Source: Chryseobacterium ginsenosidimutans (GTDB taxonomy: Bacteria; Bacteroidota; Bacteroidia; Flavobacteriales; Weeksellaceae). From it: DNA of 64,000 bases. The notes below the pieces were generated by a model. It did not search any database, was not told the DNA's origin, and saw nothing but the letters and a program-made list of their open reading frames with translations. Positions 45,165 to 53,605 of this stretch are shown piece after piece. Where the stretch lies: assembly GCF_030823405.1 (NCBI RefSeq), contig NZ_JAUSXC010000001.1, positions 2,587,001-2,651,000 of the forward strand. The letters run 5' to 3'. Position numbers and translations under genes: made by a program. Every line of letters starts with the position of its first letter. The first letter of the stretch is position 1.

Positions 45165-46181
45165 ATGAGTAAAACTTTATTTATTGCTATAGCATTAATA
45201 GCAAACTTTACATTTGCACAAACCTTTAATAATGGAGGTTTAAGTACAGGAGCTACTTCTAAAAGTGGTACAGCGGCACCAACTGGATATACATGGTCTG
45301 AAGCCCAGAATAATACAGGAAATACAACAGAGTCGAACACAAATGCAGGATATGGAGGAACTTACAGTTCTGCAACGGTAAGTTTTTTTATAGCAGATGA
45401 TTTCACAATTCCGACAGGTCAGATCTGGAATATAACAGCTATTGACTTTTTTGCTTATCAGACGGGTTATACAGGAGCTACTTCTCCGTTTAATACGGCC
45501 AGAGTCAATATTTTTAGTTCAGATCCATCGGTAGCAGGAGCAGTAAGTGTTTTTGGAAATGATACCACAAACAGATTCAGTTCAAGTGTTGATTCTAATA
45601 TGTATAGAATTTTTAACAGCCAAGTACCTACGGCTTCTACACCAGGAACAACAAGAAAAATTTGGAAAATTACAGCATCTACACCAGTCACTTTAACGGC
45701 GGGAACCTATTGGGTTAAATATCAGTTACAGAATGTAACAGTCGCAAATGCGGGCTTTCTTCCGCCTGTAACGATTCCAGGGACGAGAGGATTAGCAGGT
45801 TGGAATGCTAAACAAAACGATGCCATCGGAGGAACTTGGATTTCACTAATTGATGATGGAAATCCCTCAACTGCACAAGATTATCCAATGGATATGCCTT
45901 TCATTATTACTTTTACCAATACAGGTTTAGGTACAAAAGAAGTAATGCAGTATGATAACAGAATGCAGATATATCCTAATCCTGTAAAAGATGTTTTCAA
46001 AATTAACAATCCTGAAAAAAATAAAATTTCAGAAGTTGAAGTTATGGATATGTCAGGAAAGATTATAAAAACTTTAAAGGGTTCAGAAGAATATAATGTT
46101 TCAGATTTAGTGAAAGGAAATTATATTTTAAAAATTAAAAGCACTGAGCCTACAAAAATTGCAAAACTTATAAAGCAATAG
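45165..46181 (+). CDS. Secreted protein with T9SS type A sorting domain
   Basis: 338 aa: signal peptide (MSKTLFIAIALIANFTFAQ), beta-rich Thr/Ser/Gly body, and a C-terminal sorting domain (about 265-338; IYPNPVKDVFKI, EVMDMSGKIIK, GNYILKIK). Similar in layout to the gene at 27080; both may bind polymers or glycans, but no known domain is seen. Start set at the ATG after the -7 element; terminator shared with the convergent XRE gene. Confidence 0.87.
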   Translation: MSKTLFIAIALIANFTFAQTFNNGGLSTGATSKSGTAAPTGYTWSEAQNNTGNTTESNTNAGYGGTYSSATVSFFIADDFTIPTGQIWNITAIDFFAYQTGYTGATSPFNTARVNIFSSDPSVAGAVSVFGNDTTNRFSSSVDSNMYRIFNSQVPTASTPGTTRKIWKITASTPVTLTAGTYWVKYQLQNVTVANAGFLPPVTIPGTRGLAGWNAKQNDAIGGTWISLIDDGNPSTAQDYPMDMPFIITFTNTGLGTKEVMQYDNRMQIYPNPVKDVFKINNPEKNKISEVEVMDMSGKIIKTLKGSEEYNVSDLVKGNYILKIKSTEPTKIAKLIKQ

Positions 46182-46209
46182 CTTTAGTTTTCTTCTTCAA
46201 ATATTTTAG

Positions 46210-46238
46210 CCTGATCATTTTCCTTGATCAGGTTTTTT
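46210..46238. terminator. Bidirectional terminator, T9SS cargo / XRE regulator
   Basis: CCTGATCA / TGATCAGG perfect 8-bp stem followed by T-run on the plus strand; it reaches the last base of the XRE stop codon. Confidence 0.78.
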
Positions 46239-46773
46239 ATGGCTCAAAACTTTCGAATTTTCCATTTTCGTAGAAGATAACAATACGTTTTATTTTATCT
46301 TTCTGATTTACAATTGGTTGACTTATTGTTTGATCATTAGAGTTTTCTAATCGCTGAGAATCGGATATTTTTGTCTTTGCTGTACTTTGATCTGCTATAA
46401 AAGATTCTGGAGTAGCAGTTTTTGGAGTCTCAATTTCTTTTTCCTCAGTTCCAAAATTCTCATCGCTATTGATCATTGTAAAAAGATCGGGTAGAGAAGT
46501 CGTTTTCGGTTTTTCTTCTTCATAAATATCTTCAGACACTTTCAGATCCGGAAGCTCAGACTTTAGCATTTCACCTTCGCCTGTTACCAACCAGTCCCAA
46601 AGAATTTCAGGAAAACGTGATTTTATTTTTATAATAAATTCAAGAGACGGCTTGTTTCTTCCCGAAGTAATATGAGAAATAGAAGATCGCTGCACATCTA
46701 TTTCATCTGCAAATTCAGATGACGTAAGATTGGAATACTCTATAACTTTGGAAATTCTCTCGTTTAAACTCAT
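46237..46773 (-). CDS. XRE-family transcriptional regulator
   Basis: 178 aa. N-terminal HTH (about residues 3-62): NERISKVIEYSNLTSSEFAD, then SSISHITSGRNKPSLEFI, a typical Cro/CI-like helix-turn-helix, then WDWLVTGEGEML. The rest (75-178) is a low-complexity acidic linker and a short terminal strand (RIVIFYENGKFESFEP), which may be a dimer or effector region. Its start is preceded by an array of repeats (46796-46873) that also contain TAnnTTTG, so it probably autoregulates. The partner M14 peptidase lies across a 790-bp gap. Confidence 0.87.
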   Translation of the reverse strand: MSLNERISKVIEYSNLTSSEFADEIDVQRSSISHITSGRNKPSLEFIIKIKSRFPEILWDWLVTGEGEMLKSELPDLKVSEDIYEEEKPKTTSLPDLFTMINSDENFGTEEKEIETPKTATPESFIADQSTAKTKISDSQRLENSNDQTISQPIVNQKDKIKRIVIFYENGKFESFEP

Positions 46774-46795
46774 AAAACTATTTTCTAAGGTTGTT

Positions 46796-46873
46796 ACAAA
46801 TGTAAAAAATATAATTTACAAATGCAAATTATAGCAATAAACAAATGTAAACTATAGTTAAATACAAATGTAA
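46796..46873. repeat. Four 10-bp iterons spaced 22-23 bp
   Basis: ACAAATGTAA at 46796-46805, 46841-46850 and 46864-46873, with variant ACAAATGCAA at 46818-46827. On the minus strand each contains TACATTTG or TGCATTTG, i.e. the -7 promoter consensus. Confidence 0.85.
46797..46827 (-). promoter_or_regulatory. Promoter of XRE regulator gene
   Basis: On the minus strand: TTG (46825-46827), 20-bp spacer, TACATTTG (46797-46804), 23 bp before the ATG. Both elements lie inside iterons. Confidence 0.7.
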
Positions 46874-47534
46874 ACATAATAACTTTATATAAACTAGCTG
46901 TTTGCATATATAATCTAATATTTTACAAAAGTTTATCAATAATTGTATTCCTAAATTTCATGTAATATAGATCACAAAGTCGATAACTTATGGATAACTT
47001 ATTTTGAATAAATGTGAAGATTTATCTAATAAAGTTATTTTTGCAAAGGTTTATGTTAGCATAGAGTAGTTGAGTATTTAATGCTTAATAAACCTCTTAA
47101 ACAGGCATTAAAAGGAGGTTTACGATTGTAAAAAGATAACTTAAATTCAATTAAGCCACTGATGTATATATAATAGATGTTGTAATTAAAACACTATTTA
47201 TAACAGTTTACATAATTAAACTATATCAACAATATTATATTCGAAATGAAAATTTAGATTAATTTACATTTGTATACCGTAATTATTTATATAGTTTTCC
47301 ACATTATATACGTTTAATAAAGTTACTCCTAAACACTCTTAAAGATGACGTTATCTACTTAAAGTAATATTAAAATAATTATTTAGATAGATTTTTTAAT
47401 TATTTGATTATTAGCATTTTGTTTATATGTAATTTAATTATTATCAATCCACAATTTTATCCACAGACATTTTGACAGTTGATTCTGTTTAATGAAATAA
47501 CAAATGTAAATTTTATTTTTCTGTCAAAATTCGT

Positions 47535-47542
47535 TAAATTTG
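47535..47542 (+). promoter_or_regulatory. Promoter -7 element of M14 peptidase gene
   Basis: TAAATTTG, 21 bp before the ATG at 47564; an iteron copy (47500-47509) sits 25 bp upstream. Confidence 0.7.
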
Positions 47543-47563
47543 ACTCTTGTAAACTACTATGTA

Positions 47564-48673
47564 ATGAACTTTGAACAGATTTATTCACCTAATCCTAATT
47601 TCCCAAATCGTTATATTTCCCCTGAAAAATTATTTTCTTACCTACAGACGGATCTCAGTGGTCATATTAAGGAAATCGGAAAATCGTATTTAGAAAAACC
47701 TATTTATCAATTGACAGTCGGAACCGGTGATATTAATATTCTCGCCTGGTCGCAAATGCACGGAAACGAATCAAACGCTACTCATGCAATGTTAGATTTA
47801 TTAATGAGTTTAGATAAAGCTCCCAAACTGAAGGAAGAATTATTGAGTAAGATAAAACTCGATTTTATTTTTATGTTAAATCCCGATGGTTCCGAAAGAT
47901 GGACAAGATTGAATGCTGTCGATATTGATTTGAATCGAGACTTCCACAATGAATCAAGTAAAGAAATAAAATTCCTGAAAAATCTGGCAGCTTCTAAAAA
48001 ATATGATTATGCTTTGAATCTTCATGAGCAAAGAACAATTTTTACAACAGACGGAATTCATCCTGCCACACTGTCTTTTCTTGCTCCCTCCGAAGATTAT
48101 GAGCGAACTGTTACCGATAACCGCAAAAAATGTATGGCGGTAATTGCCGAAGTTTATAATCATTTGAAAGAATTAATCCCAAATCAGATCGGAAGATATT
48201 CTGATGAGTTTTATCCGACTTCTACAGGTGATAATTTTATCAAAGCAGGAATGCCAACGATTCTTTTTGAAGGAGGACATTTTGTAAATGACTATACAAG
48301 AAAAGGAACGAGGAAATATTACACGATTGCATTGTATTATGCACTGAAAGCCATCAGTGAATTAAACCATGGTATTGAAGGTTGGGAAACTTACCTCGAT
48401 ATTCCCGAAAACAAAGAAACGCATTACGATATTATTTACAGAAATGTAAAACTTAATACAGATCACGAATGTATTTTGGACGTCGCCGTTCAATACCGTG
48501 AAATAAAAGAGGAAGGAAAAGACGAAATATCTTTTGTCCCTTTCGTGATGGAAGTGGGAGATGTAAAACAACGAAAAGGTTGGCTGGAAATAGACTGTAC
48601 CGGAAAGAAATTTGTTTCAGAAACCAAATATCCAAAATTAGATGCTGAAGTAAATTTTAAAATAGAAGACTAA
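47564..48673 (+). CDS. M14-family zinc carboxypeptidase
   Basis: 369 aa. Zinc ligands H66-GN-E69 (MHGNES), DLNRDF substrate region, H153 in LNLHEQ, and a C-terminal FEGGHF. Cytosolic (no signal peptide), of the small M14 group that trims peptides or processes amino acid conjugates. The frame opens to a TTG at 47540 that is part of the -7 element, so the ATG at 47564 (MNFEQIY) is used. Regulated possibly by the XRE protein, whose iterons flank its promoter. Confidence 0.9.
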   Translation: MNFEQIYSPNPNFPNRYISPEKLFSYLQTDLSGHIKEIGKSYLEKPIYQLTVGTGDINILAWSQMHGNESNATHAMLDLLMSLDKAPKLKEELLSKIKLDFIFMLNPDGSERWTRLNAVDIDLNRDFHNESSKEIKFLKNLAASKKYDYALNLHEQRTIFTTDGIHPATLSFLAPSEDYERTVTDNRKKCMAVIAEVYNHLKELIPNQIGRYSDEFYPTSTGDNFIKAGMPTILFEGGHFVNDYTRKGTRKYYTIALYYALKAISELNHGIEGWETYLDIPENKETHYDIIYRNVKLNTDHECILDVAVQYREIKEEGKDEISFVPFVMEVGDVKQRKGWLEIDCTGKKFVSETKYPKLDAEVNFKIED

Positions 48674-51254: not shown

Positions 51255-51695
51255 ATGGATACACCAAATTACAGAATGCCTTTTGTTCCATCGACATTAA
51301 TGACGGAGGGAGGAAGTATCGACACCTGCGACATGGGTGAAAGTATTGCCCACAACATTATGTTGCTGATCACGACAAAAAAAGGCGAAAACAGATACGA
51401 TGAAAATTACGGAAACGACGTTTGGAACCTGGAATTCGATAACGGAATTACAAGTGCCGTTTGGGAAACTGTTTTCATAAAAAGTTTGAAAAGACAGATA
51501 CAGGAATACGAACCCCGAATTGTTCAGCCGCAGATTGAAGCATATATACAAATTGTAGAACACAGCTACGACACAAAAGAACATACCGAAATCAAAAAGA
51601 AAGTACGAATTGCCATCAATGCAAAAATGGAAGAATCGGGAGAACGTTTCAGTTTTTCTACGGAACTCTTTCTGAGCCCGATGTCGATTGATTAA
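51255..51695 (+). CDS. tssE: T6SS baseplate protein TssE (gp25-like)
   Basis: 146 aa, gp25/GPW family: MGESIAHNIMLLITTKKGENRYDENYG with the family's EnRYDexYG core, then a helix-rich region and final strands (FSFSTELFLSP). In T6SS it is the sheath-initiating wedge component of the baseplate. The 27-bp gap to tssF implies an operon. The rest of the T6SS cluster is not here. Confidence 0.83.
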   Translation: MDTPNYRMPFVPSTLMTEGGSIDTCDMGESIAHNIMLLITTKKGENRYDENYGNDVWNLEFDNGITSAVWETVFIKSLKRQIQEYEPRIVQPQIEAYIQIVEHSYDTKEHTEIKKKVRIAINAKMEESGERFSFSTELFLSPMSID

Positions 51696-51721
51696 ATCTT
51701 TTAAAACTGTAACCAGAACTT

Positions 51722-53605
51722 ATGAACTTAGACCAGAATATATATTCCAAAGAATCTGTAAAAGCGAGAATGCTTCAGAATGCTACCAAAGTGTGGGGAC
51801 TGAAAAGTCCGCAATCTCTTGATCCGTTTGTGAAATTACTGATCGATGCATTCAGCACTGAAATTTTCAAAGCAAATAACGAAATACAGAGTGTAAACGC
51901 CAGGATTTTAGAGAAATTAGCAAAACTGTTAACACCTTCAATTTATACACACCCGATCCCGTCTCATGCAATTGCCTTTACGCAGCCTTATGAATCGTCG
52001 GAAATTCTGTTGGAACACACCGAATTCTTTTTCAGGAAACAAATGACTTCCACGATAAAATCGGAGTCGGATAAACAGATCAATATTCCTTTTACACCGA
52101 TTGGGAATGTCAGAATTAATAAAGTTCAGACTTCCATCATGTTTGTAGGAAATACCTGCTACAGCGTTGATGACAGACTGAATAAAATTCCTATTGCAAG
52201 ATTTCAGGGGAAACCGGAAGATTATAGAAAAGTAACAATCGGAATTGATGTTACGAAGTATTCAAATGAAACTTTTCCTAAAAGTATAAGTATTTATTGC
52301 TCAAATCCTGCCTTTGAACATTTGGATTTTACCTATAAATTGTTGCCTTACATTACTGTTTCAAGCAATGGAAATCCTCTGTTTGTAAAAGAAGGCTTAA
52401 CGTATTATAAAAATACCCAAGCCGATGGGTACGAACAAATGTTCCGCGAGCAGTCCATTCAGAATAAGCTGATTGAAGATGTAAAAAGCATATATAATCA
52501 CAAATTTATTGAGGTAAGCGGAATTTCAAACTCATTATTCTCTGAGCCTGGGAAACTTCCCGAAAATCTTGATTTTGTTGATTATAAAGAAGAAATCATA
52601 AAATATATCGACGGAAAACGTTATTTATGGCTGGCTTTCGAGTTTCCGCCACAGTTTTCTGCTGAAATTTTAGATAATTTTTCTTTTGTACTGAATGCTT
52701 TTCCGATTTATAACCGAGGCTGGAAGAAAACGGAATACAGTTTAGACATTATGGGGAATAATATTCCGTTGGTGACTGATGAGGGCGAACATTTTTTATA
52801 TGTTGATGAGGTTCAGGATGGGGACGGAAGACGATATACCGAAATTCCGTTTACCCCGAATGATGATTTAAGAAAAGGCTTATATACCGTAAGAAAAGGC
52901 GGAATGGAACGTTTTACCAACAGAAATGCAGTCGATATGATTGCCAATGTTCTGGAATTAACGAGAGACGAAATTGCAGCATTTTCTTTATTAAATCGAG
53001 ATAATGTGAAAGGCGTTTTAAGCGAAATGTCCGATAAGATGAAATCGATGGTTCAGAAAGTGAATAATGCGAAAAGAAGTATTAAACAGGAACTGAATTA
53101 CGTAATCATGGAACCTGTCGACAAAACAGATCATACCTACGCCTCATTTTGGATTACCCATTCTACGCTGGCCAATCATATGCGCCCCGGAACTGAACTT
53201 TCAAATCAATTAAAATCGCAGATGCTGGTACTTTTAACAGAAACGATTGGCGGAGCGGAAGAACAAAAAGGAACCGACAGCATTCAGGCGTATAAATACG
53301 CTTTAACGACGAGAGATAAAATTATTTCTCTGGAAGACGTAAAAAACTATTGCAGAATGGTTTTAAAAGACGAATTGAAAGATGTAAGAGTTACGCGCGG
53401 AACAATGATCAGTAATAAACCAAAAGAAGGATTCATCCGAACGGTTGAGGTTGAAATTATTCCGCAAAATTATTCTTTCTACGGAAGAGCTTATTGGGAA
53501 AATATGGCGAATATCCTCAGAAATCAAATCATTTCAAAAGCCATCGACGGAATTGAATATATTGTGAAAATCACGAACGAAGATTCAGATTTTGGAGATA
53601 ATTAG
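51722..53605 (+). CDS. tssF: T6SS baseplate protein TssF
   Basis: 627 aa. The N-terminal NIYSKESVKARMLQNATKVW and the ILEKLAKLLTPSIYTHPIPSHA segment match Bacteroidota TssF, a large baseplate wedge protein that dimerises and binds TssG and TssE. No membrane segment. Downstream only a strong hairpin (53613-53645), so the transcript ends here and tssG and others must be elsewhere or missing. Confidence 0.85.
   Translation: MNLDQNIYSKESVKARMLQNATKVWGLKSPQSLDPFVKLLIDAFSTEIFKANNEIQSVNARILEKLAKLLTPSIYTHPIPSHAIAFTQPYESSEILLEHTEFFFRKQMTSTIKSESDKQINIPFTPIGNVRINKVQTSIMFVGNTCYSVDDRLNKIPIARFQGKPEDYRKVTIGIDVTKYSNETFPKSISIYCSNPAFEHLDFTYKLLPYITVSSNGNPLFVKEGLTYYKNTQADGYEQMFREQSIQNKLIEDVKSIYNHKFIEVSGISNSLFSEPGKLPENLDFVDYKEEIIKYIDGKRYLWLAFEFPPQFSAEILDNFSFVLNAFPIYNRGWKKTEYSLDIMGNNIPLVTDEGEHFLYVDEVQDGDGRRYTEIPFTPNDDLRKGLYTVRKGGMERFTNRNAVDMIANVLELTRDEIAAFSLLNRDNVKGVLSEMSDKMKSMVQKVNNAKRSIKQELNYVIMEPVDKTDHTYASFWITHSTLANHMRPGTELSNQLKSQMLVLLTETIGGAEEQKGTDSIQAYKYALTTRDKIISLEDVKNYCRMVLKDELKDVRVTRGTMISNKPKEGFIRTVEVEIIPQNYSFYGRAYWENMANILRNQIISKAIDGIEYIVKITNEDSDFGDN

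Follow-up and report, generated by a model that had tools for sequence, protein, structure and literature searches.

A predicted autoregulatory operator array before a conserved XRE regulator gene of Bacteroidia

A row of short dyads lies directly upstream of a gene for an XRE regulator in the window, the 64,000-nucleotide stretch of Chryseobacterium ginsenosidimutans DNA analysed here. These repeats most likely form an array of operators of the type TTACAWWTGTAA before the regulator gene. We consider it very probable that they are operators of the XRE protein itself, serving autorepression through phased, cooperative dimers and reaching to a divergent gene for an M14 carboxypeptidase. The sites, their class-wide conservation with the gene, their phasing and their overlap with the promoter consensus are seen directly in the sequences compared. 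The features are as follows.

46237..46773, minus strand: XRE regulator, presumed binder of the array; 178 aa, a member of Pfam HTH_3 (PF01381; 29.9 bits against a gathering cut-off of 23)
46794..46805, minus strand: site 1, reading TTACATTTGTAA in gene orientation and containing the -7 box TACATTTG (46804-46797); identical in 53 of 53 genus loci
46816..46827, minus strand: site 2, reading TTGCATTTGTAA in gene orientation; the TTG at 46827-46825 forms the -33 element and is separated by 20 nt from the -7 box
46839..46850, minus strand: site 3, reading TTACATTTGTTT in gene orientation, at -77, though most genus loci compared (39 of 53) have it at -68
46862..46873, minus strand: site 4, reading TTACATTTGTAT in gene orientation, at -100; 50 of the 53 genus loci have a scoring site here
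47264..47275, plus strand: site TTACATTTGTAT; opens a conserved block of about 234 bp that ends at the next site
47498..47509, plus strand: site TAACAAATGTAA; precedes the start codon of the M14 gene by 55 bp and stands just upstream of the likely -7 box
47535..47542, plus strand: TAAATTTG, which is likely to be the -7 box for M14, judged by its sequence (consensus TAnnTTTG, PMC9723704) and its conservation in the alignment
47564..48673, plus strand: gene for a divergent M14 zinc carboxypeptidase, 369 aa long when counted from the ATG; Peptidase_M14 34.6 bits against a cut-off of 21.6

Anatomy of the array and its promoter

Copies of the repeat start at 46796, 46818, 46841 and 46864 on the plus strand, so that successive starts are 22, 23 and 23 bp apart; a further pair lies at 47264 (inverted) and 47500. 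All six positions, and the regularity of 22-23 bp reported in the first-pass annotation, were confirmed in the window sequence. That annotation had also read a TTACA-AA-TGTAA dyad in every copy, which is true of 46794-46805, a perfect TTACAAATGTAA, and of none of the other three in the array: 46816-46827 (TTACAAATGCAA) and 46862-46873 (ATACAAATGTAA) are imperfect dyads, and 46839-46850 (AAACAAATGTAA) has a poor outer left arm. The copy at 46818 reads ACAAATGCAA, which differs from the annotated word, and on the minus strand TGCATTTG, without the TA of the -7 consensus. At 47120-47131 the window has TTACGATTGTAA; in close relatives (L010-L014, L019, L021 and L055) a TTACNNNNGTAA whose centre differs stands at roughly this position, and it may be an additional site in which the centre is free to vary.

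The exact word ACAAATGTAA occurs five times in the window, all inside one 714-bp stretch, and 31 times in the whole genome (4.3 Mb), compared with 35 for a reversed control word. Because the genome count is close to control and all five window copies fall together, what is enriched is the clustering and not the word. TACAWWTGTA was found at 51 places in the genome against 27 for its control, and among the places listed the array was the only spot with at least two within 1 kb. Elsewhere, dyad-like sites reached a maximum of two per 90 bp, as counted in 400 kb sampled from the same genome and in the remainder of the window.

Such counts bear on the idea that some other global regulator, or a nucleoid protein, binds the array together with many other genes. 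The extension of the sites past the promoter to the M14 side would suit a protein of this kind, but across 40 genomes of the genus the strict dyad is not in excess, with two to eight places in each and 181 in total against 169 for the control, and the sites track one XRE family across the class. Since strict dyads are so few per genome, and one stands just before the XRE gene in all 16 genomes for which the places were listed, we regard a global binder as very unlikely. A wider regulon of the XRE protein was also considered and rejected; besides the TACAWWTGTA count given above, the same genome has 5 places for TTACAWWTGTAA against 4 for the control, and 104 for TTACNNNNGTAA against 187. Four other strict sites are found there: one in a frame that, by likeness, we take to be an aspartate-semialdehyde dehydrogenase, two inside long open frames and one between genes. 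The last, at G000:C1:3869844-3869855 (L212), is, apart from the array, the sole strict TTACAAATGTAA between genes in this genome and lies 83 bp before an open frame, presumably a response-regulator-like gene; it may be another target of the protein or simply a -7 box.

The array overlaps the likely promoter of the regulator. In PMC9723704, the sigma-A -7 consensus is given as TAnnTTTG, and the -7 box spans -12 to -5 relative to the start site. Site 1 retains an asymmetric TACATTTG, which fits this consensus, and site 2 retains a TTG 20 nt before it. A promoter TTG-N20-TACATTTG built from sites 1 and 2, as first proposed from the window alone, was upheld by the comparison of 53 genus loci, in which site 1 is constant while the other sites vary at their centre. 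Site 2 was scored in 44 of these loci (reading TTGCATTTGTAA in 37 of the 44), site 3 in 48 and site 4 in 50, with a centre of AA in 31, TT in 18 and AT in one; an extra site at -154, which the window lacks, was scored in 30. Over all 113 homologue regions described below, the last 50 bp before the gene hold a site in 108, and it reads TACATTTG toward the gene in 95 of the 108.

By contrast, the first-pass claim that every copy is a -7 box was not supported, as the box is constant at site 1 only and site 2 retains the TTG without the TA. This also bears on a regulator-free alternative, namely that the copies are strong -7 boxes of tandem promoters with several start sites. The fit of TACATTTG to TAnnTTTG (PMC9723704) speaks for tandem promoters, as does the resemblance to -7 boxes of lone copies elsewhere in the genome, for example in the L005 region described below. 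However, besides the missing TA at site 2, the AA centre of site 4 in 31 of the 50 loci means that TTTG is not read toward the gene there; the right arm GTAA is kept, though a -7 box needs none; and both the helical phasing and the tie to one gene family would be left unexplained. We judge tandem promoters to be very unlikely. Because sites other than 1 and 2 are kept as dyads with a freer centre, an operator need appears to have preserved them rather than a promoter need, and in our reading operator is the better name for the repeats, with one of them probably doubling as a promoter box.

The constancy of site 1 also bears on the sign of regulation. The XRE protein could bind the array and activate its own gene or the M14 gene, and some sites do lie far upstream, at -154 and beyond. 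However, the best-conserved site is the -7 box itself, the same in every one of the 53 loci, and a protein bound there would block polymerase. We hold activation to be highly improbable.

The distance from the -7 box to the ATG is 22-25 bases in the genus and 3-5 bases in genera g4, g11, g20, g23, g26, g32 and g33; individual loci of g2 and g9 share the shorter distance. At L083, L084, L094, L095, L098, L104, L110 and L119, 4-5 bases separate the end of the -7 box in site 1 from the ATG. With the box spanning -12 to -5 relative to the start site (PMC9723704), a gap of 3-5 bases predicts that the XRE mRNAs of several genera are leaderless or nearly so.

Conservation with the XRE gene and helical spacing

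The XRE regulator has a match in 147 of 148 genomes of the genus (the window's own genome is 4.30 Mb), in 186 of 197 genomes of the family at E 0.001, some of these matches being weak, and in 87 of 296 genomes of the class. Its top NCBIfam match, over residues 1-89, is the RstR family of filamentous-phage repressors (NF041951), with 34.2 bits against a cut-off of 80, a likeness below membership. Pfam found no CI-type peptidase domain in the protein, and comparison with solved structures gave weak matches only. Eleven PHROG phage families, mostly regulators, match the XRE protein, a likeness that does not fix its origin.

Conservation in relatives, which the first-pass annotation had proposed as a check, was looked for in 113 upstream regions of homologues. 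These comprised 53 loci from the genus and family searches, 40 loci chosen for spread, all but three of which (37) belong to other genera, and 20 loci from eight other families of the order. The 53 were the best-scoring loci that the searches returned, and the rest were hand-picked for spread; loci L123-L139 entered no count. The site matrix was trained on 112 of the 113 scored loci, leaving out the window's own, so that only the class-level counts are out of sample.

Dyad-like sites averaged 3.21 per 150 bp before the start codon, compared with 0.18 in dinucleotide shuffles of the 113 regions. At least one site was present between -150 and -1 in 111 of the 113 regions, and at least two in 100. 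By group, every one of the 56 genus loci and of the 37 loci from the family's other genera had at least one site, as did 18 of the 20 loci from other families of the order; the two remaining order loci had no site in the 150 bp. We also scored a class set of 20 loci, hand-chosen from the 87 matching genomes among 296 and kept out of the training, in which 17 of the 20 loci, drawn from 16 other families, carry at least one site, with a mean of 1.4 against 0.03 expected. Five XRE paralogues of other kinds had no site in 400 bp. The tie between the array and this XRE gene was thus supported by the comparison, and a lack of conservation among related genomes, which the first-pass annotation had named as a refuting result, was not what we found.

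Distances between sites were mostly 12-13, 20-24, 32-35, 45-47 and 52-57 bp; the sites tend to be one, two, three or four helical turns apart. Taking one count per genus and spacing, phasing reached an R of 0.70, compared with a maximum of 0.39 in 5000 uniform draws, and a looser threshold weakened it to 0.52, compared with a null maximum of 0.33. The best period was 11.4 bp in the home family (n=59, R 0.74), 11.1 bp in the other families of the order (n=15, R 0.65) and 10.8 bp in the class-level set (n=11, R 0.74), and two-turn spacings are 22-26 bp in the order and class sets. Projected on the phase of the home family, the order set gave p 0.004 and the class set p 0.07, values that are optimistic because of shared ancestry.

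Site 3 appears to have moved by one such turn. Among the 53 genus loci it lies at -77 in eight, the window included, at -68 in 39, at neither position in six and at both in none, a shift that is 10 bp when measured from site 1. On a tree of the regulator, all eight loci with the -77 state fall inside a single 14-row group whose support is modest (80/82); that state needs three changes on the tree, and the loci with neither state are scattered. These placements suggest that one site has moved by one helical turn in the window's clade.

The divergent M14 gene and the intergenic spacer

A spacer of 790 bp separates the XRE gene from the M14 gene. All 52 genus loci tested carry a divergent M14 gene. 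Such a gene lies within 1200 bp in four of 37 loci of other genera of the family, and was found by tblastn in 12 of 20 loci of other families of the order, plus L168 by eye. None of the 20 class-set loci has one within 700 bp. Since M14 is absent beside the class-set loci and seldom found in other genera of the family, control of this gene would be a feature of the lineage. The top NCBIfam match of the M14 gene is the murein tripeptide amidase MpaA (NF007897), an M14-type likeness at 26.2 bits, below the cut-off of 157.

The suggestion that the array reaches the divergent gene gained support from sites at M14 promoters in other genomes. A site lies within 130 bp of the M14 start chosen by script in 10 of 13 order loci; this automatic choice was wrong for L157 and doubtful for L118. 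Seven of the order loci, each from family f3, have a pair of sites spaced 24 bp from one another, and the site closer to the gene starts 18 to 28 bp upstream of the ATG; five of seven home-family loci examined likewise have a site on the M14 side. In Flavobacteriales the neighbour is often a divergent M14 carboxypeptidase gene with the same sites at its promoter.

The block of about 234 bp between the M14-side sites (47264-47509) is strongly conserved in the genus and contains DnaA-box-like words. Within it, AATCCACAWTTTTA is found in 47 of 53 loci, TTTTAYYMACAGACA in 49 and GTTTTCCACA in 25, and ATCAACAGACA lies upstream of the M14-side site in several other genera too. The intergenic region is AT-rich, is partly conserved in the genus and includes two words resembling DnaA boxes, TTTTCCACA (47295) and TTATCCACA (47457), which would agree with replication iterons or an origin. 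However, the locus lies at 2.63 Mb within the positive GC-skew arm, with positive skew on both sides, and dnaA is at 3.25 Mb. GC skew, computed in 20 sampled stretches, changes sign at 450-645 kb and at 2.68-2.80 Mb, which places the origin at 0.45-0.65 Mb. With no skew switch at the array, we rejected an iteron-bearing origin, a reading with virtually no chance of being correct, and the word iteron, used of the repeats in the first-pass annotation, is wrong in its replication sense.

Three side observations belong here. The stretch L005 1464-2019 (G000:C1:628175-628730) is intergenic, rich in DnaA-box-like words and inside a GC-skew sign-change interval; it lies between genes that we take to resemble rpiB and pgk, and it is possibly the chromosome origin. 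A search of 46000-48000 for known RNA families returned three matches, none near its gathering score. The stretch 51255-53605 holds two reading frames that, from their translations, are presumably type VI secretion baseplate parts.

A predicted repressor circuit

From the arrangement of the sites, we infer a circuit in which a dimer of the XRE protein would bind each TTACAWWTGTAA dyad. Site 1 includes the -7 box and site 2 the -33 TTG, so that bound protein would exclude sigma-A RNA polymerase; because sites 1 and 2 overlap promoter elements in this way, binding should shut out polymerase and result in negative autoregulation. Further sites, roughly whole helical turns away, would let more dimers bind on a similar face of the DNA and help one another, sharpening the response. 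The same protein would act on the divergent M14 carboxypeptidase gene through the sites at its promoter.

The repressors of lambda (CI), 434 and P22 (c2) act on the tandem operators OR1-OR3. Like them, the system here pairs an HTH_3-type protein with tandem dyad operators two turns apart (22-24 bp) and has its promoter inside the operators. The several dyads beside the regulator's own gene (in 111 of the 113 regions, with at least two in 100), one of them holding the -7 box, agree with the lambda type, as does their helical register (R 0.70 against at most 0.39), which is weaker in the class-level projection. Unlike those phage repressors, the regulator here is a core chromosomal gene of a whole class, its operator is fused with the Bacteroidota -7 box and its sites lie one to four turns apart, and, unlike lambda CI, it has no CI-type peptidase domain by Pfam. 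The best reading is thus of a putative lambda-OR-like autorepressor circuit fused to a Bacteroidota promoter, in which site 1 would be operator and -7 box at once.

A broader picture is tentative, and we would not yet lean toward it: the circuit may be among the oldest transcription circuits recognisable in Bacteroidia, with an operator made from the lineage's -7 box, such that sigma-A and repressor share 12 bp, and with sites that stay in register with the helix while single ones jump by whole turns. In Flavobacteriales it may have become a two-promoter switch with M14; this switch might respond to cell-wall peptides, with a substrate or product of the peptidase being sensed by the conserved C-terminal tail of the XRE protein.

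Our search of the open-licence PMC literature found no paper on the XRE regulator or its operator. The analysis gives a widely kept, unnamed regulator of Bacteroidia a predicted DNA site, a predicted promoter and, in one order, a predicted partner gene. An operator fused with the unusual -7 box of the phylum, together with what appears to be a natural one-turn move of a site, would bear on the helical-phase rules of cooperative binding.
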